Source: Pseudomonas shahriarae (GTDB taxonomy: Bacteria; Pseudomonadota; Gammaproteobacteria; Pseudomonadales; Pseudomonadaceae). Taken from it: a stretch of 64,000 nucleotides of DNA. How positions within the stretch are numbered: position 1 is the stretch's first letter; the number at the start of each line of letters is the position of its first letter. The notes beneath the pieces are model-generated. The model saw nothing but the letters and a program-made list of their open reading frames with translations. It had not been told where the DNA came from and searched no databases. Shown in pieces: positions 12,543 through 48,426 of this stretch. The stretch covers positions 4,257,001 to 4,321,000 of the forward strand of contig NZ_CP077085.1 in the NCBI RefSeq assembly GCF_014268455.2. The letters run 5' to 3'. The position numbers and the translations under genes were made by a program.

Positions 12543-13162
12543 CACTGCTTCCTGCTACGAAATTTGGTTTTGCGCGCGGCTTCCTCTGCCAACGCCTGGG
12601 CGATTTTGAGCTTCTTGACCTCCCCTACCCTCGCCAGCAGTGCGGGTTCTTGGAGCGAAGGGTCAGAGTGTAGGCGTTTCGCGAGGCTGGGGTGCATGCG
12701 AAACTCTGGAAGCGATACTTGACCATCCCGACCCACCAAATATTCGACTTGCTCGATGGCTTTGAGCATCTGCTCGCCCAAGCTCCCTGTGGAGCCATCA
12801 ATGACGTTGCCGCTCTCTTCGCACGTATCGGAAATCATCTGGTAAAACGCTTTGGTAAAGCTATCCGCCATGCTGTTGGAAATTTCATCGACTGTGCGCT
12901 CAATGACGTCGAGCCGGCCTTCCATGATGTCCTCGAAGCGCAACCTTGTTTCGTGCTCGATCGTCTGCATCTGGTCGACACGGTCAGGGGCGTAGCTGTG
13001 ATGTGACTGCCACGATCCTCCGTGGCTGAAGCGCTGGACTTCATCGCTGCCACCCACTTGTCGGCGCGCTTGATCGAGCCTCTCCCCCGTAGCTTTCATG
13101 AACGCTTTCATGACGACCTCCGCCTGCGCATCAAACGGGAAAGGATGGGTTTTATCCCTCAT
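12542..13162 (-). CDS. Partner protein of the caspase-like protease (206 aa, unknown family)
   Basis: The start has AAGGAGTGAGAC upstream, a strong ribosome binding site. The protein is soluble and mostly helical: an N-terminal helical segment (AEVVMKAFMKATGERLDQA), a His/Ser-rich linker (residues ~45-60), a long amphipathic region (RLRFEDIMEGRLDVIERTVDEI) and a basic C-terminus (ARKTKFRSRKQ). There is no membrane segment, signal peptide or enzyme motif. It is the first gene of a two-gene operon, with its stop overlapping the start of the caspase gene. By analogy with other protease-effector pairs it could be the substrate, inhibitor or activator of the protease. I do not recognise the family. 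Confidence 0.72.
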   Translation of the reverse strand: MRDKTHPFPFDAQAEVVMKAFMKATGERLDQARRQVGGSDEVQRFSHGGSWQSHHSYAPDRVDQMQTIEHETRLRFEDIMEGRLDVIERTVDEISNSMADSFTKAFYQMISDTCEESGNVIDGSTGSLGEQMLKAIEQVEYLVGRDGQVSLPEFRMHPSLAKRLHSDPSLQEPALLARVGEVKKLKIAQALAEEAARKTKFRSRKQ

Positions 13163-26500: not shown

Positions 26501-26645
26501 GACGTCATTAGGCATCGAACAGGTCACCACTGCCCGTGGGAAGCCGGACCTTGACATCAGCGTGTTCGCAAGCAGGCAGATCAAGCAACCGAGCAGCTAC
26601 GGGGAGTCTCTCTTGAAGACGGCGAAGAACGGTTACTCAATCTAA
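20586..26645 (+). CDS. Giant STAND NTPase with N-terminal nuclease-like domain (Avs-like, 2019 aa)
   Basis: The N-terminal domain (~30-210) contains DDLVLGFDGVVVGHQFKTSK, where Asp66/67 and Gln80-x-Lys82 fit the D...(E/Q)-x-K core of Cap4/DUF4297-type PD-(D/E)xK nucleases. The NTPase follows: Walker A GPPGSGKS (293-300), Walker B IIVVDGLDHV (386-395) and FILGTQRLDL as a sensor-like strand. From about 600 to the end the protein is helical with TPR-like units, the usual ligand-recognition part of STAND proteins. This order (effector, NTPase, long sensor) matches Avs-type immune proteins that bind a phage protein and then activate a nuclease. It stands alone and is strongly GC rich. I see no clear ribosome binding site; Met5 (20598) is an alternative start. 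The exact Avs class cannot be decided by eye. Confidence 0.82.
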   Translation: MAPKMSKKPNPSTSVAPATAPAEGERRALRGYIGQYQRAGAAIYAALERDELLWIGVADRNAGIADDLVLGFDGVVVGHQFKTSKFPGTFTVETLFTGANGLLRPLVHAWQCLRKDNSGSRIEIRLVVNDFPSITDKPGDGTPPHSAAFLEELQQHPNRPLADWYTQEWSRLINHLRREAGLDDDDFEFFLHSLRVVCGAAADFIQSHKLNAEQARQASEIASVLPKLVADARDKDRWTRDELLRELGWRDPSKTLHIHRFPVGAYVQRNRDTEAKLLAALHAADQGYVSLIGPPGSGKSTLLQVALATEANIRLVRYLAYVPGAAQGVGRGEADNFLTDVGTQLRNSGLVGLRLRDDSLHERREQFGVLVQQAGERFDRDGIRTIIVVDGLDHVPREERPTNSLLGELPLPAAIPNGVVFILGTQRLDLANLKPAVREQAEKSERQVLMGPLGREEVARMAEALDLPAEIPRLDLSNLSHGHPLATRYLIHALLHADEAGRKHLLSGGMPFDGDIETVYTAAWREIASDVDAMDVLGYIARAEAPVDLRLLATMVKESAIERALIVARHLLRSSSQGWSVFHNSFRLFVIAQPRTRLGSVDAEYSQRVYRDLAQLAKNAPPESAQYWLELRYRARAGDGADVLALAMPARFRQQLADGRSIAEIHADIRLALLAVRGTHDATAFSLLLLCRDEVGRRETALEYANQLPLAMLAVGDIDAALAFVQYFPSQGYEIVDALLARGDFERAKELFESLEPLSQLHTSKFQSHGHDHNITEFERWARRAVHFRDTEQIQIAIDHLAAEGLRQPEKMDPQTVAALQLHLRREAAEAMLLQKVGADPQDLCSKLGVANEDKPSVMVHAGLVASRRGDVAQALALFDAAAALPGFVEVPNSYRRRMALIAFEADRRYLAEALFDKLVAPMISMCDDETDLAGLGNLVGAVMHHAKLCTLLNKPLPSAIPSKHTFLHPFQQHASTIGVLLGRAAVDNASVPAGSIQDEARIALGYVLRLTSEGGSESYRIQQAFKAIPMLVLALLRLGAKRGETEYRAVLREIDAAIASSTLGGTAYLRRRLAVDAYRVDGDRVAAADRLNALVAELQESTPSEQIDGLADLAIALAAVGDLERAKQLLATVPEQCLGYALAPKKDPQYAIWRDILVLANAADPENRVKRVSTLMRQVGGMTETEGSSAAHRLTMSLIEEATQVGPRFGFEVSKTLADWSLIGWPNRVDLLMTGMVRRSPELVLACATVWCGLCLPFYMEPYYRDPHHVGDFIDIAADAAGPIQIEPLARMFLAVIEVASRAHERVGLLQRLRTAAGRHGFSSAELDAAVARWTSEAPEPRHSYTPSKYDSETTLEQLERAFESDGDELNYNAPYRFRYLAETAPLHMARRIFERWQVLQDDARCRFLMVKRLAAAGEVDYAKKLMQGYESSKDPWSSWSQWMGGGKFFYFEAKKLLQGPSTCPAAFENIVDSVTAGQENTQSLLTELDSILPVISATPDWPAIWSLLEEQMACTREFQLGRPFQPSELPLSDTELLVDLLHFAYRLPVAEVQRHARNCTLSLARQAGLGQALFKSLMRRLIAGELDAPLHALGTLLAADSADLAPELGSAVAALVSHRDIAVAESAALLSHRWRQAVPLDEIPLPLFYRLELEHPPEGDQAFTDERTGAMRVESPLGWTEMLRSTARHIAKAAGIEEMTVRRRAAMFIQDWGGLEAFGPSATKRLETQLRVLDMQITYLKPHAYIALAALRHVAGELRLAGKLKGSDMLTLLERLGCPLPPRPLKLPRGRPEWIRMPLLNRSAGWSERERKWIDEVDGDVAPFPADSHGQVVAEVSRFKILKPRLSEHRLYRFRAPSAAIDSEDFDDCYARLPIAVWLGQYFAFDNDLAPTLVRKVVCSVDMGFDAAAYSFALCPNWVKRLRWSAHDEEPSVFLDPSGAVVARLCWWRDAGPVDIDAESLWGEGCYLVLTSLGIEQVTTARGKPDLDISVFASRQIKQPSSYGESLLKTAKNGYSI

Positions 26646-33596: not shown

Positions 33597-34253
33597 TCAA
33601 TCTATATAATCATCTAAACGCTCCTGCAGATGAGGACTCAATAAAACCGCCCATCTTAAAAACGCAGAAAATTCTTGTTTTTTATGCATAAAATTCTTTA
33701 TAAGCTCGAAGGCTCGATCTCTATCAGAATCCAACCTCCCCTCATCGTCTTCATAAATGTTAATTTGTTCCAACAGCGAATAGTACTTCTTAAAAATACG
33801 TTTACGGAGATAAGCCCCTGCAACCATTCTATTACCCGTATCCTCCTGATTATATATACGACCTAGCAGCTCTGCAGTCTCTACAACCAACGGATCGTCA
33901 CTCATAGCCTCAACAATAACTTCTTTCCCATAAGCTGTAACTGGAGGCGAGTGCTTAATTAAACGACAGACGTCAAGGTTCGGATTTGTACAATCAACAA
34001 CTCTGGTTTCAGCAGCTTTGAAATTATTGCATCTAGCGCAAGAAAAAAACAAATTACTCCATTCAAACTGCATATCAGGCCGATCTCTACGAGATTCAAA
34101 ATGCTCAACATTAAAACTAAGTGGGTCTTTTGTCTCACACAAGTAACACTTATTCAGAAAATCTTTACGTAGAGCTTCTGCAATGTCTTTCCCACGCCAA
34201 CTCATTAACGCAAGGGTTATTGGAGCAGTCTCGCTTCTAGTCACATTAAACAT
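33597..34253 (-). CDS. HNH endonuclease of a Septu-like pair (PtuB-like, 218 aa)
   Basis: The HNH domain holds two zinc-binding Cys pairs, CYLC (36-39) and CARC (72-75), with the catalytic His in VEHF (His51) and the Asn in SNLFF (Asn67). The rest is helical. Its start overlaps the ATPase gene by 8 bases, so the pair is coupled. In Septu systems PtuA (ATPase) and PtuB (HNH nuclease) form a complex that restricts phage by nuclease activity. Gene order and domain content match; assignment to Septu rather than another ATPase/HNH pair is by domain logic only. The gene is AT rich compared with the ICE backbone. Confidence 0.8.
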   Translation of the reverse strand: MFNVTRSETAPITLALMSWRGKDIAEALRKDFLNKCYLCETKDPLSFNVEHFESRRDRPDMQFEWSNLFFSCARCNNFKAAETRVVDCTNPNLDVCRLIKHSPPVTAYGKEVIVEAMSDDPLVVETAELLGRIYNQEDTGNRMVAGAYLRKRIFKKYYSLLEQINIYEDDEGRLDSDRDRAFELIKNFMHKKQEFSAFLRWAVLLSPHLQERLDDYID

Positions 34254-35478
34254 CGTCTACTCCTTCGTTTTTCGGGCCAGATAGACGTAAAACTTTATTT
34301 TTAGCTTTTTCAAAGTACATCCTAGATTCCGGATCGAGAATTAGTTTGTAAGGTGAAACACTATCAATAAGTCCTTTAAATATCAGATAGTCCGGGGCAG
34401 GACTTGCCGCAAGCTTATCAAGCTGTACAATTTTCTCCTCCAGTTTTTTGGAAATCGCTGGCACCCCGAGTAGACCTTCGATAATAGAATCTACAGGATA
34501 CATAGATAAGTCATGTGCGGTTTTTCCCGATGACAAATCGTAGATCAAAACGTCATCAACCGATGAAAGCACAAAAGGAGAATGCGTAGTTACTACATAC
34601 TGAATCGCGGGAAACGACCGCATTAGGAATGGTAGAATTTTTCTTTGTAGAGAAACATGAAGGTGCGCATCTATCTCATCAATCAACACTACCCCTCTCA
34701 ATTCCGAAGGAATTATCTTATGGCGTTCACACCGCATCAGCAAATCTGCAATAATACTGAAAATAGCCGAATACCCTGACGACAACTCTTGAAACTTTGC
34801 TCTTGGCATACCATCGCGAGATATAAAATACCTAAGTAGATCAGCATCAAACTCCAGACTTAGAGAGTCATCTTCAAAAAGATACTTAAGATCCTGCTCA
34901 AACTTATCGAGCCACGACTCAATCTCATCAAACCGAGATAAGTCACTGCTATTTAACGACGCAACTGCCGCCCTAACCTTCAAATTAACTATATGCTGCT
35001 CCAGCTCCTCACCATACTTGAAATCAGCATAATAACGAGCATTCTCCTTAACAACACCACCAGCTCCAGAGACATCCTTTATCTCTGCCTGCCTAGTAGC
35101 AGAAAACAACTTTAGAACCGCCACATGCTCCTTGAGTGACTTAGAAAACTCTTCGACCCCACTAATCTTAAAAAGATAGTCTCCTCGATTCTTTCGATAA
35201 TTTTCACGGTGAATCTTCAGCAATCCTACATGAGATTCCATATGCTCCGGGTAATTCCGAATGCTAGCATGAGCATTTCTAATACCACTTATATAGTTAG
35301 CTTTATACGTGTAACCATGACCAAGAAAATCCTTTAAACTCTCATGCAACTTCCTTACAAAAGAAGTTTTTCCCGAGCCGTTTTGACCTACAATCAAAAG
35401 ACTTTTCCCACGAGGCTTTACACTTACATACCTCGAGATACTTGGCACATAACAAAGTATAGATTCTAAAGCACCCAT
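34246..35478 (-). CDS. ABC/SMC-type ATPase of a Septu-like pair (PtuA-like, 410 aa)
   Basis: ATG 35478 is chosen because GGAGG is right before it; the frame extends upstream to 35517 without another good start signal. Walker A is GQNGSGKT (31-38). A long helical insertion follows, then an ABC-like signature region (ELSSGYSAIFSI), Walker B VVLIDEIDAHLH and the H-loop-like VTTHSPFVLS. These are the marks of the OLD/PtuA/RecF-type AAA15 ATPase group. It is the first gene of the pair with the HNH gene and, like it, AT rich. It would sense infection and control the HNH partner. Confidence 0.85.
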   Translation of the reverse strand: MGALESILCYVPSISRYVSVKPRGKSLLIVGQNGSGKTSFVRKLHESLKDFLGHGYTYKANYISGIRNAHASIRNYPEHMESHVGLLKIHRENYRKNRGDYLFKISGVEEFSKSLKEHVAVLKLFSATRQAEIKDVSGAGGVVKENARYYADFKYGEELEQHIVNLKVRAAVASLNSSDLSRFDEIESWLDKFEQDLKYLFEDDSLSLEFDADLLRYFISRDGMPRAKFQELSSGYSAIFSIIADLLMRCERHKIIPSELRGVVLIDEIDAHLHVSLQRKILPFLMRSFPAIQYVVTTHSPFVLSSVDDVLIYDLSSGKTAHDLSMYPVDSIIEGLLGVPAISKKLEEKIVQLDKLAASPAPDYLIFKGLIDSVSPYKLILDPESRMYFEKAKNKVLRLSGPKNEGVDDV

Positions 35479-35925
35479 CTCACCTCCAAGGCACACAACT
35501 TCTCTTAAAAAAACCACCCCAACACCCAGTTAACCTTCGACCATAAACTCCCCCCAACGCTGACAAACATCCCACTCCTCTAGGGCTAGCAACATCCCTA
35601 GTAATAGCAAATTCTTCTTAACGAGAACGGCTGCACAAAATAAAAGAATGCAATAATTACTCAGGTCGTCACTCTATAATTCAAAGCTACCCAAGCAGCT
35701 CCTGAGAAAATTGACTTTTTCTTTTCATGAGCCTACGCAGATCTGCATAGATAGGGGTTGTTAACAAAACCCTAGCGGCCTGGCCTCATCATCCTTGAGT
35801 GTATCGGGGGTGTTGGTATTGCATTGACCCGCCGACACAGTCGTAGAACTGAAAATACCGTGATCGTGGCGAAAAGCCACCCTCTTTCAGTGGAAACCTA
35901 AAAATTTCTGAAGAAGCGCTGAGCA
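35479..35925. other. Intergenic region upstream of the Septu-like pair
   Basis: About 450 bases, AT rich on the left side, containing the promoter of the minus-strand pair by position. No gene or clear motif is seen. Confidence 0.4.
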
Positions 35926-36441
35926 TTATCGTCGAATCTTCTGAAAGCCCCCCCCCAACACCTCCACCGCAAACGGCTTCGTCAACACCCCCATCCCCAC
36001 CCCCAACTGCCCATACCCCATTACCGCATTCTCCGCGTACCCAGTAATAAACAACGTCTTCAACCCCGGTCGCAGTTCCATCCCCGCTTCCGCCATCTGA
36101 CGCCCATTCATCCCACCCGGCAACCCCACGTCCGTCACCAGCAAATCAATATGCACATCCGACCTCAGCAGCTTCAGCCCCGCCGAGCTGTCTACCGCTT
36201 CGATCACGGTGTAACCCAGTTCGCCCAGGACGTCGGCAAGCAGCATGCATACGGTGGATTCGTCGTCCACCAGCAGCACGGTTTCGCCGTGCTGGGCGAC
36301 TTCGATATCCACTTGCCCCGGAGTCAGTTCGTCACCCGGCGCCGTGGTGGCGTGGGAGGTAGAGGGACACGCAGGTGCCTTCGCCTTCGGTGGAGTGGAG
36401 GTGCATTGGCCGCCGAATTGTTGGGCGAAGTTGTAGGCCAT
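35926..36441 (-). pseudogene. Remnant of a hybrid sensor kinase: receiver domain
   Basis: The frame encodes a short N-terminal piece (AYNFAQQFGGQ) like the end of a histidine-kinase ATPase domain, then a receiver domain: VLLVDDES, phospho-acceptor Asp in LLVTDVGLPGG, and LTKPFAVEVL with its conserved Lys. The kinase part is missing upstream, where the sequence turns into GGGGACAGATTTATTT and the MITE-like element. The C-terminus runs into a 9-base C tract at 35950-35958 and ends in an unfamiliar tail, which suggests a frameshift. It is best read as a leftover of a chromosomal gene. Confidence 0.75.
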
Positions 36442-36863: not shown

Positions 36864-39842
36864 ATGATTAGTCGTGGGTCTGAATGGCATCGGTGGGAGC
36901 CGCACATTCATGCCCCGGGTACGGTTCTGAACAATCAATTTGGCTCAGACAACCCGTGGGAACCCTACCTTCAATCGCTTGAAGAACTGATACCTTTAGT
37001 GGAGGCGATAGCTGTTACTGACTATTACGTCACGGACACCTATGAGGCCGTCCTTAAACACAAAGAGGCTGGCAGGCTGCCCAGTGTCCAGCTTCTCTTT
37101 CCGAACATTGAGCTTCGCCTCGATGTTGCCGCGAAATCCGGCTTTGTGAACATCCATCTGCTGATCAGTCCAGAAGATCCTGATCACCTGTCAGAGATCA
37201 AACGCATCCTTAAGCGCCTTCAGTTTCAAGCTTTCGGCGACCGGTTTGATTGCACACGGGATGAGCTGATAAAACTCGGGAAGTGCGCTGACTCCTCGAT
37301 TGTTGATGATGGCGCTGCTTTACGGCATGGAGCGACGCAATTCAAAGTCAATTTCGACCAGCTCCGAAAGGTTCTTGGTGAAAGCGACTGGGCGAAGAAG
37401 AACATCCTAGTCGCTGTAGCCGGTAATGCGGGCGATGGGACATCCGGAGTTCGACAGGCTGCCGACGCGACCATACGCCAAGAAATAGAAAAGTTCGCAC
37501 ATATCATTTTCTCTAGCAGCTCCGCACAGCGAGAGTTCTGGCTCGGCCAACGTTCTAGCATGACTCCAGAGGATTTGCGCATTCGCTATGGCGGATTCAA
37601 ACCATGCCTCCACGGCAGCGATTCCCACGACCAGAAATCGGTGGGACAGCCGGTAGATAAGCGTTTCTCATGGATCAAGGGAGCACTCGAATTTGATGCC
37701 CTCCGTCAGGCTTGCATTGACCCAGAGGGGCGCGCTCACGTTGGCGAGCTGCCTCCTCGTTCTGCCATGCCTTCCCAAGTTATTTCCCATATAAGAATCA
37801 ATAACGCAGCCTGGGCGGAATCGCCCAGCATCCCTCTAAATCCTGGGCTTGTGGCAATCATTGGCGCGCGAGGTTCGGGTAAAACCGCTCTCGCCGACAT
37901 CATCGCTGCCGGCTGTGATGCGATCACCGAAGAGAGTTGGAGCGCAGATGAGAACAGCAGTCCATCCTTCCTGGCACGTGCTCGACGGTTGATGGGAGAT
38001 GCATCCACTACTCTTACCTGGGGAGGGGGAGCCTCCATCGAACGCGCTCTTGATGGGAGGGACGCGAATGGCCATATGTCCTTTGCGCGGGCTCGCTACC
38101 TTTCTCAGCAGTTCGTTGAAGAGCTGTGCTCGGCAAAAGGTATGTCCGACGGCCTGGTGGACGAGATCCAGAGGGTCATCTTTGATTCACACACCCCAGA
38201 TAGTCGCGATGGAGCTATCGATTTTGGCCAACTTCGCGAGCAACTGACGGCTCGCTTTCAACAAGCTCGCGCTCGAGAGGCTGCGGCAATTGATGACATA
38301 TCAGAGCGAATCGCGATCGAATTTGAGAAGGAAAGCTCAGTTGCTTTGCTGACCACTCAAGTCTCTCAGAAAAAGCAGCAGCTCCATGGGTACTCCATCG
38401 ATCTGGCAAAGCTCGTAGTCAAAGGTACAGAGGCGCATGCGATTCGGCATGCCCAGTTAAGTACGGCGGCCGAAAGCCTGCGAGGCCGAATACGGGACTA
38501 CGGTAATCAGCGTCGCACCTTCGTCGCGTTACAGGACGAGGTACGGAGCATGCGAGCAACAGGTGCGCCTGAAATCCTTCGGCAGGCACAGGCCAGGCAC
38601 ACTAATAGCGGCCTAGGGCCTGAGCAGTGGGATCAGTTCCTCCTGATTTATAAGGGGGATGTCGACCAGAGTCTGACCGCCTATATCAAATGGGCTGACG
38701 ATGAGATCGCGAAGTTTAGGGGCGTTCCCCCACCACCAGGCGACCCTCTAACTCCTCTAGTTGCCGATACGGTGGACATTACCTCTTTGGCACTAGCACC
38801 TATCACTGCTGAGATGACAAGGCTCGAAGCGCTTTTCAGTGCCGATAAGTTGATTCAAGATCAGTTCAAAGCTCTTTCCGACCGTATCACTCAAGAAAAC
38901 ACAATTCTCAAATCTCTTGAGAGCAGGCTTACAGACGCTCAAGGGGCAGAAGCGCGGCGTAAGATGCTCCAGGCCGAGCGTAGTGACACGTATGGTCGTG
39001 TATTCGAGGCAATCATCAATGAGCAGGGGGCCTTAGCCGATCTCTACCATCCGCTAATGGTACGTCTGGAGGCCTCATCAGGAACCCTACAAAAGCTCGG
39101 CATATCTGTTCGTCGATCAGCCGATGTCGGCGAATGGGGAATCATTGGAGAAGAAAAGTTGCTCGATAGGCGAAAGGGCGGGCCGTTCAACGGCCGAGGG
39201 TCGCTGATTGATGCTGCAACAAGAGAGCTCAAGCTTGTATGGGAGACGGGTTCCGCTTTGGAAATCCAGACAGCAATGGCGGCTTTCATGGATAAGTACC
39301 GCAGGGACTTTATCGCTCATGCTCCAGTTTCTCAGTCCCAGCAAGGGGAGTTCCGCGCTTGGTCTAAGCAATTTGCTGCTTGGCTTTACAGCACTGACCA
39401 CATTACGGTCAGCTACGAGATTTTGTACGACGGTATCGACATCAGGAAGCTGTCACCAGGGACGCGGGGTATTGTGCTGCTCCTGTTATATCTGGCGCTC
39501 GACGACGCAGATGATCGACCTCTGATCATCGACCAGCCTGAAGAAAACCTTGATCCTAAATCGGTTTTCGACGAGTTAGTCTCTCTCTTCGTAGCCGCGA
39601 AAGCCAAGCGTCAGGTGATTATCGTCACCCACAACGCCAACCTTGTGATCAATACCGATGCCGACCAGATCATCGTGGCAACCTCGGGCCACCATACTCC
39701 GGGTGGCCTACCGCCTATTTCCTATGTGTCAGGGGGGTTGGAGAGCTTAGAGGTTCGTAAAGCAGTGTGTGAAATTCTTGAAGGGGGCAATACTGCCTTT
39801 CAGGAGCGAGCGAGAAGACTGCGGGTAAGGTTGGAACGGTGA
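36864..39842 (+). CDS. PHP-domain/SMC-type ATPase (TrlF-like, 992 aa)
   Basis: The N-terminal PHP domain has metal ligands in HIH (14-16), VTDYY (Asp53) and HGSDSHD (250-256), typical of PHP phosphoesterases. An ATPase follows: Walker A GARGSGKT (334-341), a long coiled-coil region (~450-700), an SMC/ABC-like signature KLSPGTRGIVLLLL, Walker B LIIDQPEENLDP, and the H-loop VTHNANLV. This is the TrlF-type arrangement, a PHP nuclease or phosphatase coupled to an SMC-like ATPase and known from defence islands. It stands alone in the cargo. The start has only a weak GGGG in front; the upstream frame ending at 36871 is not considered real. Confidence 0.82.
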   Translation: MISRGSEWHRWEPHIHAPGTVLNNQFGSDNPWEPYLQSLEELIPLVEAIAVTDYYVTDTYEAVLKHKEAGRLPSVQLLFPNIELRLDVAAKSGFVNIHLLISPEDPDHLSEIKRILKRLQFQAFGDRFDCTRDELIKLGKCADSSIVDDGAALRHGATQFKVNFDQLRKVLGESDWAKKNILVAVAGNAGDGTSGVRQAADATIRQEIEKFAHIIFSSSSAQREFWLGQRSSMTPEDLRIRYGGFKPCLHGSDSHDQKSVGQPVDKRFSWIKGALEFDALRQACIDPEGRAHVGELPPRSAMPSQVISHIRINNAAWAESPSIPLNPGLVAIIGARGSGKTALADIIAAGCDAITEESWSADENSSPSFLARARRLMGDASTTLTWGGGASIERALDGRDANGHMSFARARYLSQQFVEELCSAKGMSDGLVDEIQRVIFDSHTPDSRDGAIDFGQLREQLTARFQQARAREAAAIDDISERIAIEFEKESSVALLTTQVSQKKQQLHGYSIDLAKLVVKGTEAHAIRHAQLSTAAESLRGRIRDYGNQRRTFVALQDEVRSMRATGAPEILRQAQARHTNSGLGPEQWDQFLLIYKGDVDQSLTAYIKWADDEIAKFRGVPPPPGDPLTPLVADTVDITSLALAPITAEMTRLEALFSADKLIQDQFKALSDRITQENTILKSLESRLTDAQGAEARRKMLQAERSDTYGRVFEAIINEQGALADLYHPLMVRLEASSGTLQKLGISVRRSADVGEWGIIGEEKLLDRRKGGPFNGRGSLIDAATRELKLVWETGSALEIQTAMAAFMDKYRRDFIAHAPVSQSQQGEFRAWSKQFAAWLYSTDHITVSYEILYDGIDIRKLSPGTRGIVLLLLYLALDDADDRPLIIDQPEENLDPKSVFDELVSLFVAAKAKRQVIIVTHNANLVINTDADQIIVATSGHHTPGGLPPISYVSGGLESLEVRKAVCEILEGGNTAFQERARRLRVRLER

Positions 39843-40301
39843 AGTGTGAACGGGGCGGGAAGTCATACCCACCCCGCTCAGGGTCTGATGGTCTGCAAAC
39901 AGGTGCGATAGCGCTCGTGATTTAAGATGAGTACGGGTATGACCAAAACAATCATCAGACCTACCTCGTCCCTGATACATGCGTGGGCTGTTGGATGATG
40001 AAGCGTTGGGGCTTTTTAAGAATGTCATAGATAATCAGTCAATAGACTAGTCAAACCAGGACACTGGACCGCTGTTTGAATCCCCAAGGTTTTTGTAGAC
40101 GTTTCCGACAGTCCGCTTTTGGCCAACTATTGCTCGTACGAACGGTAGAAACCGTCCAATAGAGGTCATTCATCGTCTACAAAATCCCGAGCGGGCCGGT
40201 AGCTTCAAGCCCAAATCCGAAAGCACTTTGCAGGCGTACGGACTCGCTGCAAAATAAGATTAAGATCTCTCTGTGAACCGCTCAATTTTCAAGGACGACT
40301 G
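39843..40301. other. Intergenic region before the three-gene module, with left 17-bp inverted repeat
   Basis: Just after the TrlF stop is a hairpin CGGGGCGGG/CCCACCCCG (39851-39876) with one mismatch, a possible terminator without a T run. At 40108-40124 is ACAGTCCGCTTTTGGCC, the exact inverse of 47518-47534 beyond the three-gene module. The ribosome binding site AAGGA for the next gene lies at the right end. Confidence 0.5.
40108..40124 (+). repeat. Left 17-bp inverted repeat flanking the three-gene module
   Basis: ACAGTCCGCTTTTGGCC. The perfect complement is at 47518-47534, 7.4 kb away. The core TCCGCTTTTGGCC also occurs at the left end of the MITE-like element (36490). Confidence 0.7.
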
Positions 40302-43300
40302 ATGCCACCAGTACCGATCAAGCGCAGGTTCACACCGGTCCCCGCAGCGTATCAGAAGGACGATTTGCCACTCGACGAAGTGTGGACTCATCTTTCCCGA
40401 GGGCAGCACAAATGCTGGAGTGAACTACTTAACGAGTACCGCGTTGTCATCTTGGCGAACGCTGGCGCGGGGAAGACTTACGAACTCGAGTCCGCAGCAA
40501 GGGAACTTTGTACCCAAGGTAAACCAGCATTTTTTCTTCGGATTGAAGATATACATGACAACTTCGCAACTGCCTTCGAGGTCGGGTCTGAGGAATTGTT
40601 CGAGGAATGGTTGGCTGGTTCGGCCGAAGCATGGTTTTTTCTAGACTCCGTTGATGAGATTCGATTGACCGAGCCGCGCGCATTCGAGCAGGCAATTCGA
40701 AACTTTGCCAAACGAGTTCGCTCTGCGAGCCAACGCACGCATATCTATATTTCAAGTCGGCCTTATGCTTGGCGTGCGCAGCGTGATCGTTCCTTGATAG
40801 AAGAATTACTCCCGTTTGATCCTTTACGCCAGGAGGTCATCAATGACGATGATTCACCTGCTGATTTCCTTGATGGCGACATCGTAGAGAGGAAATACTC
40901 GACCACCAGCGTTCAAAAAAACGAGCCATCACTCCAGTTATACCAACTTGCGCCACTCGAACAAAAAGACATTCGTCTTTTCGCTGAGCACAGCGGCGTT
41001 GTGGACAGCAGTGCTTTTTTGGATGCGCTTGAACGGAGCGCCATGTTTCCACTCGCAAAATTACCCTTCGATCTACGCGATTTGATAGCAACTTGGCTTG
41101 AGAATCAACGGTTAGCCAGCCGGCTAGAAATTTTGCAACAAGGCGTTTTGCGGCAACTGAAGCAAGCACCGCTATCAGCACCGGGGTTGCCACTCGAGCG
41201 TGCTGAAGCAGGGGTGCAGCTAATCGCCATCGCGGCGATTTTAACGGGACGCTCTAATATTCTTCTCCCTAATTCACCGAACACAGGGGCAATGGACCCA
41301 AAAGTACTGCTGCCTGGTTGGACCGACGCCGAGATCTTAGCGGTGCTCACGAGCGGGATTTTCGGTGATCCAATTTTCGGAGAAGTGCGCTTTCGTCATC
41401 GAGAAATCCGTGAGTTGCTTGCAGCAAGTTGGATAAAGAACAATGTAGAACTCGAAGCTGCGCGTGGGGAAATTGAGCAGCTTATCTTCCGTCGACAGTA
41501 CGATGAAGATATTCTGACTCCCCGCCTAAGGCCGATTCTTCCTTGGCTGATATTGTTTGATGGCGCGATTCGCGATCGCATAATTCCAAACTATCCTCAG
41601 GTGGCCGTAGAAGGTGGAGACGCAGCTAATCTCCCTCTTCCTGTAAGACGCGAAATCCTGTCTAAGATGATTGAGCGCGTTCTTGATCCTATCTCAACAT
41701 TCCGTGGCGTAGATAACTCTGCAATAGCCAGAATTGCTCAGCCTGATCTGGCAGCCTACGTGCTTGAGTTGATTGAAGCGTACGCTCATAACGAAGACGC
41801 AATTTTTATTTTAGGACGCCTAGTCTGGCAGGGTGAAATGCGCACCTGCCTAGACGCATTGACTCGAATCGCCGTAGACCCAGAGCGTGGACTATATGCG
41901 CGAATGGCTTCCGTACGGGCGGTAGCATGCGTTGGTAATTCGAACCAACTTCACGCTCTATGGCGGTCACTCATTACCTTGTCGGAGTCAATTCCGGGGC
42001 GGTTAATGACAGAGATCACCGCTTATGCTCCTGCAACGGCAGAAACAATTGCGCTATTGCTAGAGTCACTCGATAAGCTAGAACTGCCTCAGAAATACCA
42101 AGCGTCTGGAATGCCCCACGCTATGAACGAATTTGTTCAGCGCCTGCCTATCATCTCAAGTCAAGCGACTAATCCATTGCTGCTTGAGCTTGCAGAAGGC
42201 CTACTCGGTTACCTTGAGCGTGAGCCCCATATCCAGCCTGGTGAATGTCCAATTTCAAAAACGTATATATGGCTAATGGACTGTGCACTGCACTGTATCG
42301 GGCGCTTGATCATTGCGCGTCATCCGTCGGCGTTATCTCCAGTCTCACTCACAATCCTGGCGGCAGCACCGACGATACGACTATGGCACGGTGAGGACCA
42401 TCAAGAGCACAGGTCAACTATTGATACGCATCTATCGCAGTGGCAGGAGCTCAATGATGCTCTCTTCTGGTGGACGGTAGCAGAATGTCGTAAGCAACAG
42501 GAGTCAAAGGGGAAGAGACTCCAGGACGATTGGCCAGTGACTTGGCCGGAGCATTTCTGGACATTTGATGAAACCAGCTTCGAGCGAACGCTTAATTGGA
42601 TAAGGGAGCGATCGCTTCACGATGATCAACTTGTGGCTCTATCTCGATCGGTGCGCACTTACAAAGGTATGGGGCAACCTTCGGCTTGGCTTGACGACCT
42701 ACGTCGTATAGTCGCTGGTAATCTTGAATTGGAAGCAGCCCTAGAATCCATACTAAATCCGCCAGTAACGCCCGATACGCGGCGCTATGAGGAGCAACAG
42801 CACACCTTCCGTGAAAATAGAATACGTCGTAATGAAGAAAATGCTTCGGCTCGCACAAAATTTGTGAAGCGATTGCGCTCCGATCCTAATATCATCCGAC
42901 ATCCCCCGGGCTTAAAACCCTCCGAATTAAGTACACCCCAGTTTCACTTGCTTCAAAGCATTGAAAATCACAACCATCTCAATCAGCATGCTGACGCAAA
43001 GAGTTGGAAAGTTCTGATCCCCGAATTCGGGGTTGCAGTCGCCGAGGCGTACCGCGATGCAGCAAAGGCTTTGTGGCGTGCATACAAACCCAAGACTCGC
43101 TCGGAAGGTGCAAATGCCGCCTCTGTTCCCTATGTGATTGTCTTTGGCTTGTCGGGACTTAATATAGAAATCGAAGAAAATAGCGCGATAATCGAGACAT
43201 TCGAAAAAACCCTGGCTCGGCACGCGCTTCGTTATGTCCTATGGGAGCTGAATGGTTTTCCACGATGGTTCGAAGCCTTTTATCGATCGTGGACAAAGCT

Positions 43301-44129
43301 ATCATTGGACTTCCTCTGGAAGGAGGTTGAGTGGGAGCTCAAGGAAAGCCCGGTAGAACAATCACTGCATTATGTTCTGCACGATCTCGTCTATTACGCC
43401 ATTTGGGTCCACGCCGATTTAGGGCCGAAACTCTACGGTTGGCTTCTGAAAAATCACGTGGCGAATCAAGACTGTCTGCGCTATTGCCGGATGATAATGA
43501 TGGGGGGCGGTGTGACAGCTCACGAAGTGGCGACGCTCGCCGGACAAAAAATAACGGACACCAGCACCCCGCCAGAACAGATCGCGTTTTGGCATGCAAT
43601 GAGAACTGATGCCGATCCTGCTCTCTCGCTGCCAGCCCTCATCGCCAAGTTCAATACCGGCACTCTTGAAGAACGCACGGAATTCGGTAGTGCCTTTAGT
43701 GTTGCCTTACTCGGTAGCCATCGAGATGTGCCTTCATCTTTCAACAAATTCAAAACTCCGAGTTACCTCAAACGGATTTACCTACTAATCCATGGCTCGG
43801 TTAAGGCTTCCGACGACATCGAGCGAGCCGGTAAGGGAGTCTATTCGCCAACGTTACGCGACGAAGCGCAGGATGCACGAGAGCGTCTGTTCTCACTGCT
43901 AGCCGAAATTCCCAACGAACTTGCCTATCGCGCAATCCTCGAACTAGCGGACGAGCATCCTGAGCCTCGCTATCGCGACTACATGCGCGTTCGCGCTTAC
44001 CAGCGAGCAGAACAGGATGGTGATTTGTCGGCGTGGAGTACGTCCCAGGTATCCCAACTTGCGTATCGTCTAGCCGGTCGCCCCGACAATAAGGTTTCGG
44101 CACCTGGAGACGACAATGCAAAAGCTTGA
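40302..44129 (+). CDS. NACHT-like STAND NTPase of a three-gene module (1275 aa)
   Basis: ATG 40302 has AAGGA 8 bases upstream. A short N-terminal part is followed by Walker A ANAGAGKTYE (52-61), Walker B FFLDSVDE (113-120) and the sensor strand YISSRPYAW (149-157), the pattern of bacterial NACHT NTPases. The remaining ~1000 residues are helical repeats (sensor/scaffold), with a Trp-rich segment near 920-1000. No effector domain is fused at either end, unlike Avs-type proteins, so the effector is likely supplied by the downstream genes. The 3' end overlaps the HNH-ATPase gene by 14 bases. Proteins of this sort detect infection and switch on partners. Confidence 0.82.
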   Translation: MPPVPIKRRFTPVPAAYQKDDLPLDEVWTHLSRGQHKCWSELLNEYRVVILANAGAGKTYELESAARELCTQGKPAFFLRIEDIHDNFATAFEVGSEELFEEWLAGSAEAWFFLDSVDEIRLTEPRAFEQAIRNFAKRVRSASQRTHIYISSRPYAWRAQRDRSLIEELLPFDPLRQEVINDDDSPADFLDGDIVERKYSTTSVQKNEPSLQLYQLAPLEQKDIRLFAEHSGVVDSSAFLDALERSAMFPLAKLPFDLRDLIATWLENQRLASRLEILQQGVLRQLKQAPLSAPGLPLERAEAGVQLIAIAAILTGRSNILLPNSPNTGAMDPKVLLPGWTDAEILAVLTSGIFGDPIFGEVRFRHREIRELLAASWIKNNVELEAARGEIEQLIFRRQYDEDILTPRLRPILPWLILFDGAIRDRIIPNYPQVAVEGGDAANLPLPVRREILSKMIERVLDPISTFRGVDNSAIARIAQPDLAAYVLELIEAYAHNEDAIFILGRLVWQGEMRTCLDALTRIAVDPERGLYARMASVRAVACVGNSNQLHALWRSLITLSESIPGRLMTEITAYAPATAETIALLLESLDKLELPQKYQASGMPHAMNEFVQRLPIISSQATNPLLLELAEGLLGYLEREPHIQPGECPISKTYIWLMDCALHCIGRLIIARHPSALSPVSLTILAAAPTIRLWHGEDHQEHRSTIDTHLSQWQELNDALFWWTVAECRKQQESKGKRLQDDWPVTWPEHFWTFDETSFERTLNWIRERSLHDDQLVALSRSVRTYKGMGQPSAWLDDLRRIVAGNLELEAALESILNPPVTPDTRRYEEQQHTFRENRIRRNEENASARTKFVKRLRSDPNIIRHPPGLKPSELSTPQFHLLQSIENHNHLNQHADAKSWKVLIPEFGVAVAEAYRDAAKALWRAYKPKTRSEGANAASVPYVIVFGLSGLNIEIEENSAIIETFEKTLARHALRYVLWELNGFPRWFEAFYRSWTKLSLDFLWKEVEWELKESPVEQSLHYVLHDLVYYAIWVHADLGPKLYGWLLKNHVANQDCLRYCRMIMMGGGVTAHEVATLAGQKITDTSTPPEQIAFWHAMRTDADPALSLPALIAKFNTGTLEERTEFGSAFSVALLGSHRDVPSSFNKFKTPSYLKRIYLLIHGSVKASDDIERAGKGVYSPTLRDEAQDARERLFSLLAEIPNELAYRAILELADEHPEPRYRDYMRVRAYQRAEQDGDLSAWSTSQVSQLAYRLAGRPDNKVSAPGDDNAKA

Positions 44130-46431
44130 GGAACGCGGCATTCCGCCCGATATTCTTCAGTCCAAATCGGCGGATTATTCGCGAAGGGTGATGCGGAGTT
44201 TCTTGGCCCTCAATCCGAATCGCCGAGCACAAACTAGTGTGCCGGCTATAGGCATCAGTGCAACAGATGAGCAGTTGATTGCCGCTGTTTCTAAACTCAG
44301 CCGGAATCGCTGTGCTTTCTGTGAAGCGGAAGACGAACTGTCGGTTCATCGCTTCCGGCCAGTCGGGAATGCCTTGCCATTCGTAGAGTCGAAAAACGCA
44401 CACCTTTACTACCTGTGGCTTGCCGATGCTTGGCAGAATTTGCTTCCTATTTGTACCGGTTGCATCCCGCTCGAACCCCAGTTCCCAATGACTGGCCGCC
44501 GCGCCCCGCTGCCTTCCGATCGTGAAATCTTCGACTATATCGAACGAAATGACGGTGTATGGCCAAATTACCCGCCGAAGGAAAACATCCTTTTGCTCGA
44601 TCCCACTCGCGATCGCGAGTTTGAAAAACACCTCACCCCCAAACTTGATGGCGAGCTGATAGGAAGCTCGCCAAAAGGCGAGGCAACCGTGCGTGTATTC
44701 AATCTCAACCGATCCGACCGTCGTGATCAGCGTTACCACACCTACCAATCGCATATTGATCGCTTTCTCCCGCTCTTTAGGAGTTACGGGAGATACGGAA
44801 ATGAGTCCGAATGGCAAGCACTCTTTGACTTTTCAGGAATGGAGTTCGGTGGTACTTGGTATCTTCTACTGCGCCGTATAGCCAGATGGATTAGCGCTGC
44901 GACTGGAGTTAAATGGAGGACTTCGCGCGATCACATCCTTTCGTTTTTTACGAGACTGGCCGAAACTCCTGACGCTCTGGATCGCGTTGAGTCGGCTCTC
45001 ATTACTATTAGCCGCGAGGATCGAGAGCTACAAAAGTTTCGTAGAAAAGATGGAAGGGTTTATCCCACACGCGAATCAGTCACTTCGGTTGAAATCAGTA
45101 ATTTCAAGGCAATTGAAGACCTCAGACTGACTTTCAGCGCACCGGCTGTAAGACCTGGAGATCTGTCGAGCAGACAAGCACCATCACTGATAATTCTCGG
45201 TGAGAATGCGACCGGCAAAAGTTCGATTCTCGAAGCGATTGCGTTGGCCCTGACAGATCCAGCTGCTCGTAGCGCATTAAATGTACCCTGGCGTCGCATG
45301 GTGCTCGATCCCTCTCAGTTGGGACTAGAGAGAACCTACACACCACAGGGAGCCAAAGTGCGCGTGAAGCTGAGCAACAATCAGGAGGTCATACTGACAA
45401 TCGATCAGGGGCTACCGGTTGTGCACAGCGATCTCGGTAAGCATCACGTGCCTGTATTCGCCTATGGAGCATTTCGACGTTTCATGACGGGTACACATCG
45501 GACTTCTCCTCATACACACATCCGCAATCTCTTCGACAGCAGCACTCTATCCAATCCAGAACCCTGGCTTAAATCTCTGAAGCTAGACCAGTTCAACATG
45601 GTGATTCGTACGCTGCGTGATCTACTTTCAATCGAAGGAGATTTTGAAGTCATACAGCGCGAGCCTCGCACACGCCAACTTCGCATGGTGACCTCGCTGA
45701 AAGAACCGGATGGAGAGCTCTACTATAATCGGACTCCGCTTCATGCGGTCTCATCAGGATATCGATCGATGCTCGCAATGGTGTGCGACATCTTGCGAGG
45801 TCTACTGGATCCCAATGTTTATGAAGGGTTTGAGAGTTTCCAGACGGCGCAAGGTATCGTACTGATAGATGAAATCGAGGCCCATCTCCATCCACGCTGG
45901 AAGGTCCAGGTTATGTCGAGCCTACGTGCCGCGTTGCCTGGAATGACATTCATCGTCACAACACATGATCCGCTTTGCCTGCGAGGAATGGGGGATAACG
46001 AGGTTGTGGTTCTCCAGCGTATCGCAACCTCCGACAGCCAGCGCCAAAGTCAGATGCCTATAGTGGTCGAGCGCATGGAAGGGTTGCCGTCAATGACGGA
46101 CCTTCGTATTGAGCAATTACTAACATCTGACTTCTTTCAGCTGCTTTCCACCGATGATGCGAAAGCTGATCGCCGTCTGGCTCAAATCGCCGATCTCATC
46201 ACAGCGCGTATGCGAGGAGAAGCAATGTCCGCCGAAGACAGTCGGATCCTCACAGCCTTTGAGCAGGATATATCTAGCGCGCTACCTGTAGGTTCAAGTG
46301 AAGTACATCGCATCGTGCAGTCAGCAGTTGCTCAATATCTTGCGCAGCGAAGGGACGCGAGCAGTCGAACACTGCAGCGGTTGCGTGATGAAGCAAGAGA
46401 CGAAATTCTGAAAGCATTGGAGGCAGTGTAA
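44116..46431 (+). CDS. HNH-ATPase fusion protein of a three-gene module (771 aa)
   Basis: The N-terminal ~220 residues are HNH-like with Cys pairs CAFC (66-69) and CTGC (113-116), and VHRFRP between them. Compared with VEHYRP in the neighbouring HNH protein, the residue in the catalytic His column is Arg79, and no Asn follows the second Cys pair, so the nuclease may be inactive. The ATPase part starts near 322 (TSVEISNFKAIEDL), with Walker A GENATGKSS (362-370), a RecF/AAA15-type Walker B GIVLIDEIEAHLHP, and VTTHDPLCL. It is in effect PtuB and PtuA joined in one chain. It is translationally coupled to the NTPase upstream and 2 bases from the HNH gene downstream. Confidence 0.82.
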   Translation: MQKLEERGIPPDILQSKSADYSRRVMRSFLALNPNRRAQTSVPAIGISATDEQLIAAVSKLSRNRCAFCEAEDELSVHRFRPVGNALPFVESKNAHLYYLWLADAWQNLLPICTGCIPLEPQFPMTGRRAPLPSDREIFDYIERNDGVWPNYPPKENILLLDPTRDREFEKHLTPKLDGELIGSSPKGEATVRVFNLNRSDRRDQRYHTYQSHIDRFLPLFRSYGRYGNESEWQALFDFSGMEFGGTWYLLLRRIARWISAATGVKWRTSRDHILSFFTRLAETPDALDRVESALITISREDRELQKFRRKDGRVYPTRESVTSVEISNFKAIEDLRLTFSAPAVRPGDLSSRQAPSLIILGENATGKSSILEAIALALTDPAARSALNVPWRRMVLDPSQLGLERTYTPQGAKVRVKLSNNQEVILTIDQGLPVVHSDLGKHHVPVFAYGAFRRFMTGTHRTSPHTHIRNLFDSSTLSNPEPWLKSLKLDQFNMVIRTLRDLLSIEGDFEVIQREPRTRQLRMVTSLKEPDGELYYNRTPLHAVSSGYRSMLAMVCDILRGLLDPNVYEGFESFQTAQGIVLIDEIEAHLHPRWKVQVMSSLRAALPGMTFIVTTHDPLCLRGMGDNEVVVLQRIATSDSQRQSQMPIVVERMEGLPSMTDLRIEQLLTSDFFQLLSTDDAKADRRLAQIADLITARMRGEAMSAEDSRILTAFEQDISSALPVGSSEVHRIVQSAVAQYLAQRRDASSRTLQRLRDEARDEILKALEAV

Positions 46432-46433
46432 CC

Positions 46434-47396
46434 ATGCGCCGTGTTGATCGCTCCGGCGTGGATACTCCAAAATCGCTTCTTCCTGGTGGTAAAGGTCTGG
46501 CCGAGCTGGCAAAGGCTAGGGATCACCGCAACGCTCCCCCTCCAGCAGATGGCACAAAAAAGAAGAGCTTCGAGTACAAAGCTTATAAGGGCGGCGACGT
46601 TCATATTGCATTAGAGAAACTGTTCCACGGAAAATGTGCGTACTGTGAAACAGTGTATGCCGCCTCAGCCCCCGTGGATGTCGAACACTACCGTCCTAAA
46701 AACTCAGTCTCCGAAAGCCCCGGACATGGCGGCTATTGGTGGATCGCTATGCAATGGGAAAATTTGCTACCTAGCTGCATCGATTGCAATCGTCAGCGTG
46801 GGCAAGTATTGGTTGCACCTTCTACCAGTTTGGCGGTACTTGCTGCCACCGCTAAACCGGCAATTAGCCAAGCTGGCAAGAAAGATAGCTTTCCGCTTGC
46901 AGATTCTGGCGTACGGACGATTGCTGAGAATACGGATTTTACTGCCGAACACCCTTTACTACTTAATCCTTGTCGAGATGACCCTGCCGCAAGCCTGATG
47001 TACAGTTTTGATCCGGTGAACGCGAATGGGTTGATCTTGCCAGCAGGTGATGAGGATCAACAGAAACGCGGCGCCGTCTCAATCCAAATCTATGGTCTAA
47101 ATCGATTAACACTCGTGCAGGATCGAACTCGGATATTGAGATGCCTCGAGTTTCTTGGTGATCTTGTAATCGATATTTCTGGCTCGATTGCAGACTTAGA
47201 AACGCCAGCCTCTATAGCAGCATTGGTTGGTACACCTGCTGAGGGAGTCGCATCGAGGTTACGGCTTCTGCGCGATCGTACTCTGGCTGAGATAAAAGAC
47301 TTTTCAGCTGATGAAGCTCCCTATTCTTCGATGGCTAAAGCCTGGCTTGAGCAATTCAAAGTGCGAATTTTGTCTACCCCCTCTGCCACTCCTTAA
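46434..47396 (+). CDS. HNH endonuclease of a three-gene module (320 aa)
   Basis: A clear HNH motif: CAYC (68-71), VEHYRPK with His85, WENLLPSC with Asn110, and CIDCN (115-119). The zinc ligands and catalytic residues are all present. The N-terminus (LAELAKARDHRN, FEYKAYKGGDVHIAL) and the loop after the motif resemble the HNH proteins paired with AAA ATPases in retron and Septu-type systems (TIGR02646-like). It follows the HNH-ATPase fusion after 2 bases, so three genes are made as one unit. It is the most likely nuclease effector of the module. Confidence 0.83.
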   Translation: MRRVDRSGVDTPKSLLPGGKGLAELAKARDHRNAPPPADGTKKKSFEYKAYKGGDVHIALEKLFHGKCAYCETVYAASAPVDVEHYRPKNSVSESPGHGGYWWIAMQWENLLPSCIDCNRQRGQVLVAPSTSLAVLAATAKPAISQAGKKDSFPLADSGVRTIAENTDFTAEHPLLLNPCRDDPAASLMYSFDPVNANGLILPAGDEDQQKRGAVSIQIYGLNRLTLVQDRTRILRCLEFLGDLVIDISGSIADLETPASIAALVGTPAEGVASRLRLLRDRTLAEIKDFSADEAPYSSMAKAWLEQFKVRILSTPSATP

Positions 47397-47419
47397 AAAG
47401 CGTAATTGCAAGGACCACC

Positions 47420-47488
47420 CATTTGCATTGCCGTTGACCAGTCAATTGCATCCGTGCTGACCAACCGTTTGCATTCCACCTGACTAGC
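47420..47488. repeat. Three 23-bp tandem units, possible IS21-family terminus
   Basis: TTGCAT occurs at 47423, 47446 and 47469, and TGACCA/TGACTA at 47435, 47458 and 47481, each with exact 23-base spacing. Multiple terminal repeats of this type are known at the ends of IS21-family elements, where the transposase binds. No istA/istB gene is present nearby, so this would be a remnant. Confidence 0.5.
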
Positions 47489-47517
47489 ACACGTCGTAGT
47501 GACGACCGACAGAGGAC

Positions 47518-47534
47518 GGCCAAAAGCGGACTGT
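47518..47534 (-). repeat. Right 17-bp inverted repeat flanking the three-gene module
   Basis: GGCCAAAAGCGGACTGT, perfect complement of 40108-40124. Confidence 0.7.
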
Positions 47535-47814
47535 TACGCAGGGTTAGCAGCTCTCTTTGAAGCCTGAAGGCGTCTACAGAAGAAGGGGCGATTCACCTTT
47601 TAATACCCTGGCAGTACCAATAACCATCCCCCATCACGTAGATACTGCATCCCTACACTCATCCCTTCAATAATTTACAAAGCGAAAATCCATACTAAAC
47701 GAACGACGTTTCAATTCAACTCTACGATAAAGAGAAACCCTCTACCCCAATCCAGTTTTCCTACTGGCAGGGGTATTTCCATGCGAGACACTCAGAACAC
47801 TCTCCTGCGCATGG

Positions 47815-48150
47815 ATGCCACCAATGCTCCTTCCCTACTCTCTCGGGCTTTCAGCTCTGCTGACGTGCAGCATCGCGTCATTTGCCTTTGCTTCTGCTAC
47901 CGGCGATGAGCATCAACAACTCTCCCTGATCCTTCGTCAGCTTGATGCTCTAAGCCGCCTGGCAGCATCACGCGACGCGTTTGTGATCACTCCAAGTGCC
48001 CGCTACAGCTTCGACTACCCGCGCCTGTCCGCTGACATCGACCTGATCCGCCAGGGCATCAATGGCTACATCACGCCCTCCCGCGCTCAACCTCGTAGCC
48101 CGCTGGAGGTGACCGGTCACTACACCCGGCCAAGCGCTTCACAGCCATGA
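47815..48150 (+). CDS. ICE protein, RAQPRD family (111 aa)
   Basis: It has a signal peptide (LGLSALLTCSIASFAFA) and a small periplasmic helical domain. The family's name motif appears near the C-terminus as SRAQPRSPLEV, following the FDYPRLSADIDLIRQGI segment. ATG at 47815 or 47824 may start translation. Such proteins begin the second half of the transfer operon in PFGI-1-like elements; they are thought to be periplasmic. It overlaps the next gene by 4 bases. Confidence 0.83.
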   Translation: MPPMLLPYSLGLSALLTCSIASFAFASATGDEHQQLSLILRQLDALSRLAASRDAFVITPSARYSFDYPRLSADIDLIRQGINGYITPSRAQPRSPLEVTGHYTRPSASQP

Positions 48151-48386
48151 GTATGAGTCAGCAACAACTCGCCGCGTTCCGGGCATTAGGCGGGTTCACA
48201 CCTCAGCAAAGCACCACGTTACTCATCGGTCTGGTTTTGGCGAGCGCATTGGTCTTCGCTGCCTGGGCGCTCGGTAGCGGCTATCGCGGTTGGGCTACAG
48301 GCCAGATTTCACAGGCGAAGTTCGTTGGCCTGACGATGAAGGTATCCCTGATCTACATCCTGCTCACATTCCTGTTGCTGCACTGA
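48147..48386 (+). CDS. ICE membrane protein, TIGR03758/PFL_4701 family (79 aa)
   Basis: A short protein with two transmembrane helices (about 23-43 and 60-78). The sequence (FTPQQSTTLLIGLVLASALVF) and its position directly after the RAQPRD gene match the DUF3262/PFL_4701 family. It is probably a structural part of the transfer apparatus in the inner membrane. Confidence 0.85.
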   Translation: MSMSQQQLAAFRALGGFTPQQSTTLLIGLVLASALVFAAWALGSGYRGWATGQISQAKFVGLTMKVSLIYILLTFLLLH

Positions 48387-48426
48387 TGCGGCACCAACGT
48401 TCACACATCGCCATTGGAGGCACACC

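Follow-up and report, generated by a model that had tools for sequence, protein, structure and literature searches.

A HyoA-family sensor gene followed by Septu-type ptuA and ptuB genes in Pseudomonas shahriarae: a probable case of effector replacement

Why would a gene for a NACHT-like sensor overlap the first of two genes for a Septu-type nuclease? The question is raised by a trio of genes in a 64,000-nucleotide stretch of Pseudomonas shahriarae DNA (assembly GCF_014268455.2, contig NZ_CP077085.1, positions 4,257,001 to 4,321,000; hereafter the window), which comes from a genome consisting of one contig of 6.05 Mb. A sequence-only reading of the window had proposed that the trio is an undescribed defence module in which a STAND sensor commands a Septu-like complex. 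Our sequence comparisons make it likely that the trio is one defence system, in which the PD-(D/E)xK-like nuclease that most related NACHT sensors of the HyoA family carry as a fused tail has been replaced by operon-encoded Septu-type PtuA and PtuB proteins.

The three open reading frames, which encode proteins of 1275, 771 and 320 amino acids (aa), were confirmed to be adjacent and co-oriented on the + strand, as initially described, with a 14-base overlap between genes 1 and 2 and a 2-base gap between genes 2 and 3. Their features, in window coordinates, are as follows.

40302..44129 (+): gene 1, HyoA-type NACHT/STAND NTPase of the short form, 1275 aa; matches NF058534 and is tail-less
40455..40478 (+): Walker A of gene 1, residues 52-59; columns do not vary across the 29 aligned sequences
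40632..40658 (+): Walker B of gene 1, residues 111-119; columns invariant or nearly so
40752..40775 (+): SSRPYAWR motif of gene 1, residues 151-158; from the alignment of 29 sequences
44116..44129 (+): 14-base overlap of genes 1 and 2; equivalent start codon in 6/8 loci
44116..46431 (+): gene 2, PtuA-type ABC ATPase with an N-terminal HNH-like domain, 771 aa; matches PDLC00291
44311..44466 (+): degenerate HNH-like region of gene 2, residues 66-117; from alignment with PtuB
45199..45222 (+): Walker A of gene 2, GENATGKS, residues 362-369; from alignment
46434..47396 (+): gene 3, PtuB-type HNH nuclease, 320 aa; matches PDLC00329 at 409.4 bits
46635..46790 (+): intact HNH motif of gene 3 (C68, C71, H85, N110, C115, C118, N119); from alignment

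Promoter-like and terminator-like sites did not exceed their frequency in shuffled sequence.

Gene 1 aligned with the NCBIfam model for HyoA (NF058534) at 1198.3 bits, with residues 6-1263 falling on profile positions 1-1253 of 1430, which places its homology in the HyoA sensor core (profile 1 to about 1250). This score is 1.7 bits short of the curated cut-off of 1200; short relatives also fall below it (P0040, 1160.2 bits; P0010, 1187.9 bits), and four long HyoAs score 1561.9-1706 bits and cover the entire model. Among 7995 scored candidates, 1135 were homologues of gene 1 at an E value of 0.001 or better, and the 120 listed comprise 88 proteins of fewer than 1400 residues and 32 longer ones. 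An alignment of 29 sequences, including that of the window, displayed Walker A (A52-N-A54-G55-A56-G57-K58-T), Walker B (L114-D115-S-V-D118-E119) and an SRPYAWR motif in which residues 153-158 are invariant. We take the Walker A, the NACHT-type Walker B and the SRP motif to be the NACHT/STAND motif set, with SSRPYAWR as a possible sensor 1. Gene 1 matched no Pfam family and no PADLOC model at an E value of 0.1, and no HyoA relative was found in the PDB at that threshold. Two features first noted for this protein, Walker A/B motifs and the lack of a fused effector, were borne out, the latter by PADLOC, Pfam and the tail profile described below.

Gene 1 stops where the C-terminal domain of the long members (profile about 1255-1430, approximately 180 residues) would start. 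Using a profile built from the last 185 residues of 32 long HyoA members, we found no match to this tail in gene 1 at E<1. Five residues (E39, D73, E88, K90 and Q107) do not vary across 45 aligned tail sequences. The predicted structure (mean predicted local distance difference test score 90.8, predicted template modelling score 0.89) runs helix, three strands, helix, strand, which puts D73 just ahead of the second strand, E88-x-K90 on the third strand and Q107 in the next helix. We take this order of strands and helices, together with the invariant residues, to be the PD-(D/E)xK signature, so the model points to a PD-(D/E)xK-like nuclease at the C-terminus of long HyoAs. Other forms of the C-terminus were also seen: a 1517-aa HyoA relative (L053, 3125-7678) carries a tail that has no PD-(D/E)xK match and, by eye, likely membrane helices at its end, and P0118 and L056 look like damaged long forms. 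We did not adopt tail loss as mere decay, given that most short HyoAs group in the tree and regular partners accompany many of them.

Genes 2 and 3 matched entire PADLOC models for PtuA and PtuB. The gene 2 protein scored 1052.5 bits against PDLC00291, with residues 1-770 on positions 1-772 of 773, and the gene 3 protein matched PDLC00329 nearly end to end. Judged by sequence, the best relatives of gene 2 in the PDB are PtuA-named chains, several of them retron I-A effectors, which align with the ATPase part only; no relative of gene 3 was found at an E value of 0.1. Gene 2 contains Walker A and B of the PtuA ABC ATPase, in agreement with its initial description as an HNH region joined to a PtuA-like ATPase, but its HNH proved degenerate: when aligned with PtuB, both CxxC pairs and N108 are kept, and the catalytic His column holds R79 and the last Asn column I117. 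Gene 3 was rightly called a complete HNH protein, with H85, N110 and N119 all kept (residue numbers in the HNH regions of both proteins are hand counts from alignments). The catalytic His column of PtuA holds Arg in all 8 HyoA-linked proteins and in 12/18 stand-alone ones, the remainder of which have His (2; L229, L230), Leu (2) or Gln (2), and the last Asn is substituted in 8/8 HyoA-linked PtuAs. These alignments suggest that the HNH-like domain of PtuA is probably inactive. We therefore rejected two active HNH nucleases, and the trio probably contains one active nuclease because the HNH of gene 2 is degenerate at two catalytic positions. According to the available text of PMC13096335, Walker-motif changes in PtuA, or changes of H75 or N91 in PtuB, abolish immunity by Septu EcB88, which cleaves tRNA-Tyr in its variable loop.

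We evaluated the conservation of this arrangement in a scan with the HyoA alignment, limited to one genome per species, from which the best 80 of 109 loci were kept; 7 of these are truncated. Among the rest, PtuA directly follows HyoA at 0/63 loci with a PD-(D/E)xK (PD) tail, of which 59 show at least 600 bp downstream, and at 6/10 loci without one (L002, L003, L004, L023, L080 and L081). At each of the six, PtuA starts inside the end of HyoA and PtuB is next. The other four tail-less loci have a Fic gene upstream (L005), likely membrane helices (L053) or a contig end (L056, L059). A further Pseudomonas genome added another trio locus (L193), such that the same genes occur in the same order in 8/8 inspectable loci of the HyoA clade to which gene 1 belongs (the window and 7 others), in Pseudomonas, Stutzerimonas, Sphingobium, Caulobacter and a Sphingomonas metagenome-assembled genome. 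Because the order is the same in all eight, the arrangement is not a product of chance. No inspected locus of this clade had the three genes apart, and in the libraries searched no single named system matched all three proteins.

Indirect linkage gave a similar distribution. HyoA and PtuA clusters have longest contigs of equal size in 18/41 of the best short HyoAs, 1/47 other short ones and 1/32 long ones; small sizes may coincide by chance, as they did for the single long HyoA, where the contig of 4690 bases is too small for both genes. In 6/8 loci, gene 2 has an available start codon (ATG or GTG) that gives an overlap of exactly 14 bases with gene 1, and 40/44 listed proteins from the clade end in A-x-x, versus 5/43 in the Fic group; we read this ending as an imprint of the overlapping start in the other frame. 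Counting every type, HyoA relatives are uncommon, occurring in 14/369 class, 15/398 phylum, 13/390 order, 16/298 genus and 12/259 Sphingobium-family genomes (samples that overlap), and the trio-type HyoA is present in 4/298 genomes of the genus sample, including that of the window. No near match was found in Escherichia coli genomes, one scan of viral contigs with A1 returned 44 pattern matches and 0 relatives, and the 7 records of a phage collection that match PtuA do not do so across more than 80% of it.

Other short HyoAs have a different partner. On two Rhizobium plasmids and at L005 and L196, the HyoA has no PD tail and its start shares 4 bases with a Fic gene; the pairs with an overlapping upstream Fic gene lie at the following coordinates.

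L005, 4360-9281: short HyoA with overlapping upstream Fic
L104, 4817-9702: short HyoA with overlapping upstream Fic
L105, 4802-9705: short HyoA with overlapping upstream Fic
L196, 1879-6859: short HyoA with overlapping upstream Fic

The Fic protein of L005 scored 71.7 bits against the PADLOC model SoFic. HyoA and Fic clusters have longest contigs of equal size in 16/48 of the other short HyoAs, 0/40 of the best short ones and 0/32 of the long ones. The Fic-linked short HyoA is likely a second effector-swap variant, for which we found no name. P0054, a short HyoA whose longest contig equals that of a Fic cluster in size, has a C-terminal DUF433 domain.

We also examined the descent of these partnerships. 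In a FastTree phylogeny of the sensor core (204 rows), all 25 PtuAB-labelled rows fell in one 49-row clade with a support of 100. Labels were available for 151 rows (PD 107, PtuAB 25, Fic 19), the PtuAB labels having been seen directly for 8 rows and assigned through equal longest-contig size for 17; the 53 unlabelled rows include L053 and L056, and the split-HyoA loci L061 and L196 are absent from the tree. Two changes explain the PD, PtuAB and Fic labels. In an IQ-TREE phylogeny of 59 rows that we chose (22/25 PtuAB, 14/19 Fic and 23/107 PD), the 22 PtuAB rows again formed one clade, with a Shimodaira-Hasegawa-like approximate likelihood ratio test value of 100; the Fic and PD rows were not cleanly separated, and three changes were needed. 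A single PtuAB origin holds on both HyoA trees, and we are unsure of the number of Fic origins. The simplest reading of these trees, for which no root was inferred, is that nuclease fusion came first.

The partner proteins tell a matching history. In a PtuA tree, from which proteins shorter than 690 aa and near-copies were left out, all 23 HyoA-linked rows lie in one 52-row clade (support 99), which contains 0/18 stand-alone pairs and 29 rows of unknown context. Distances between HyoAs correlate with those between their PtuAs at r = 0.921 over 22 pairs, a value reached in 0/2000 permutations, and with those between their PtuBs at 0.97 over 8 loci (no permutation), with sensor identities among the HyoA-PtuA pairs down to 42%. 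The HyoA-PtuA comparison omitted 5/19 contig-linked pairs (2 locus duplicates, 1 near-copy and 2 with partial PtuA). Taken together, the trees and correlated distances fit one joining followed by long joint descent. What is tied together is this PtuAB lineage with this HyoA lineage, rather than PtuAB generally.

We favor the effector-replacement reading because PtuA follows only tail-less HyoA, the PtuAB-linked HyoAs form one clade, sensor and partner show matched divergence, and Fic provides an alternative partner. From this pattern, we infer control of PtuAB by HyoA and a role of the trio in phage defence. The long C-terminal region of HyoA would recognise a phage product, upon which the NACHT domain would exchange nucleotide and oligomerise; activated HyoA would then switch on the PtuA-PtuB nuclease, which would cut nucleic acid (tRNA or DNA) and halt the infection, probably by abortive infection. 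More tentatively, and as a picture that we would not yet back over its alternatives, HyoA may be a plug-in sensor, like nucleotide-binding leucine-rich repeat (NLR) proteins, with exchangeable weapons (fused nuclease, Fic, Septu), which when activated recruits PtuA-PtuB in trans in the manner of an inflammasome, with the PtuA pseudo-HNH as a docking or scaffolding part.

Several results weigh against the replacement reading. The NACHT label of gene 1 is weak by Pfam, where 29 family members gave only weak matches (nSTAND_NTPase5 in 6, nSTAND3 in 1, NACHT in 1), and derives from the motifs and the NCBIfam name; likewise, the tail profile yielded only weak PDB matches, with E values of 0.14 or worse. 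The overlap varies, in that L004 and L081 lack the 14-base start and L002, L080 and L193 also have earlier starts, and L061 has both Fic and a PD tail, in a split frame. In the PtuAB clade of the sensor tree, the remaining 24/49 rows are unlabelled, their neighbours unseen, and none is labelled otherwise; moreover, this clade may stem from a single evolutionary event, in which case its loci would not be independent trials. PtuA matches at E 1e-40 or better occur in 19/268 Pseudomonas genomes, of which 4 are HyoA-linked; 13 of the other 15 were inspected (all except G587 and G1299), and 13/13 of these loci carry a PtuA-PtuB pair without an adjacent HyoA, although at L229 a HyoA with a PD tail lies about 4 kb from the pair, on the opposite strand. 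The same was true of 5/5 inspected plasmid pairs. Since PtuA/PtuB pairs stand alone in this way, PtuAB can apparently function without HyoA. The claim of the sequence-only reading that a STAND sensor commands the Septu-like complex stands as the best reading of the replacement pattern, with the qualification that command is deduced from that pattern.

If HyoA does act on PtuAB, it could do so with the opposite sign: HyoA might hold PtuAB inactive as a restraint, such that phage interference with HyoA frees the toxin. By analogy, the available text of PMC11555353 reports that PtuAB of retron-Eco7 together arrest growth and that neutralisation needs both the reverse transcriptase (RT) and msr-msd, and a sensor-first, effector-second order with an overlapping start would suit a restraint. 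However, PtuA/PtuB pairs of the same architecture exist without an adjacent HyoA, and the fusion of a nuclease to the sensor in long HyoAs is a better fit to activation, which leaves restraint an unlikely but live rival account. Slightly less likely still is that HyoA and the Septu pair are two independent defences that share only an operon, and hence expression, within a defence island. The stand-alone pairs and the other defence genes of the island would agree with such independence, but the HyoA of the trio has neither the nuclease of its long relatives nor another recognised effector, PtuAB occurs only with the tail-less form and diverges in step with it down to the lowest sensor identities, and flanking genes vary from trio locus to trio locus. 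That the trio instead acts against plasmids or other mobile elements, or is a stability module of its own conjugative element, is very improbable: it does sit amid genes of an integrating conjugative element (TraD, TIGR03745, 03750, 03746, 03752, TraC and TIGR03755, all above cut-offs), but the HyoA family is named as antiphage and Septu EcB88 was tested as antiphage, according to the available text of PMC13096335.

The window contains further genes with matches to defence families. A two-gene ordinary Septu lies about 5 kb from the trio (33597-35517, -), within an AT-richer stretch (GC 0.42 at 34001-36000), and encodes a PtuA of 423 aa (PDLC00268, 384.5 bits) and a PtuB of 218 aa (PDLC00331, 215.9 bits). 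A neighbour of the trio is a TrlF-family ATPase gene (36864-39842, +; 688.6 bits, cut-off 350), and a TrlF-like gene is also found beside the PD-carrying HyoA of L077. TrlF was rejected as a fourth member, as 7/7 other trio stretches had no TrlF hit above 100 bits. Farther away are genes for a STAND-like protein of 2019 residues with a partial Avs1b match (20586-26645, +; 60.2 bits, cut-off 1500), a caspase-like protein of the EACC1-associated type (10644-12545, -; 58.7 bits, below the cut-off of 140) and the candidate defence protein PDC-M09B (16733-18163, +; 663.4 bits, nearly full length).

The proposal of an undescribed module holds in part, in that none of the named systems in the searched libraries accounts for the complete trio, yet both halves are known families: PADLOC assigns genes 2 and 3 to PtuA and PtuB and leaves gene 1 unmatched, and NCBIfam assigns gene 1 to HyoA. 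In the literature on Septu, PtuA, NACHT, NLR, HNH and Fic, the combination appears in no title or abstract start among the matches listed, and it may be in print elsewhere. The name HyoA led only to a pulmonary hypertension paper and EruA to papers that look unrelated from their listing, no source was found for the name HyoA, and the available main text of PMC13092281 contains 0 occurrences of Hyo, Eru, Septu or PtuA. HyoA with PtuAB is a conserved combination that carries no name within the libraries and paper listings searched; it joins a known sensor family to a known effector and is best read as the replacement of a fused nuclease by an operon-encoded one. These results suggest that immune sensors in bacteria can exchange one weapon for another and retain their detector. 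If so, one sensor family would offer a natural comparison of a fused nuclease, Fic in trans and Septu in trans, and sensor-effector communication in NLR-like proteins would be testable with parts that evolution has swapped. It would also account for some cases where software calls Septu from two genes of a three-gene system and overlooks the sensor, and retrons would be joined by a second kind of controller that uses PtuAB.

How, then, does the trio compare with known systems? Gene 1 is homologous to HyoA (NF058534), but it has no C-terminal PD-(D/E)xK-like domain and has operon partners; EruA (NF058535) is a distant HyoA relative, against whose model gene 1 scores 98.2 bits, far below the cut-off of 1000. 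The Fic-linked systems resemble the trio in joining a tail-less HyoA to a separate partner gene, but that partner is a Fic protein encoded upstream with a 4-base overlap, whereas the PtuA of the trio is encoded downstream. Septu (the PADLOC PtuA1/PtuB1 models) shares with the trio proteins that match the PtuA and PtuB models as a whole, and a PtuB HNH nuclease with an intact motif beside ptuA. Septu is a two-gene system, whereas in the trio an overlapping HyoA gene leads and gene 2 begins within it, and the PtuA of the trio carries a degenerate HNH-like domain. Retron-type control of the trio was rejected: Pfam and NCBIfam gave no reverse transcriptase match in the three proteins, and Rfam gave no match in 39500-48400, although Rfam may lack the msr-msd family. 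As the available texts of PMC11555353 and PMC8565338 describe, PtuAB in retron-Eco7 is the effector of another controller, and the first of these reports that it leads to the loss of tRNA-Tyr. Retron I-A / Eco7 (PADLOC Septu type II) and the trio would thus be alike in placing PtuAB under another controller, which is RT with msr-msd in the retron, whereas in the trio it would be a NACHT protein.

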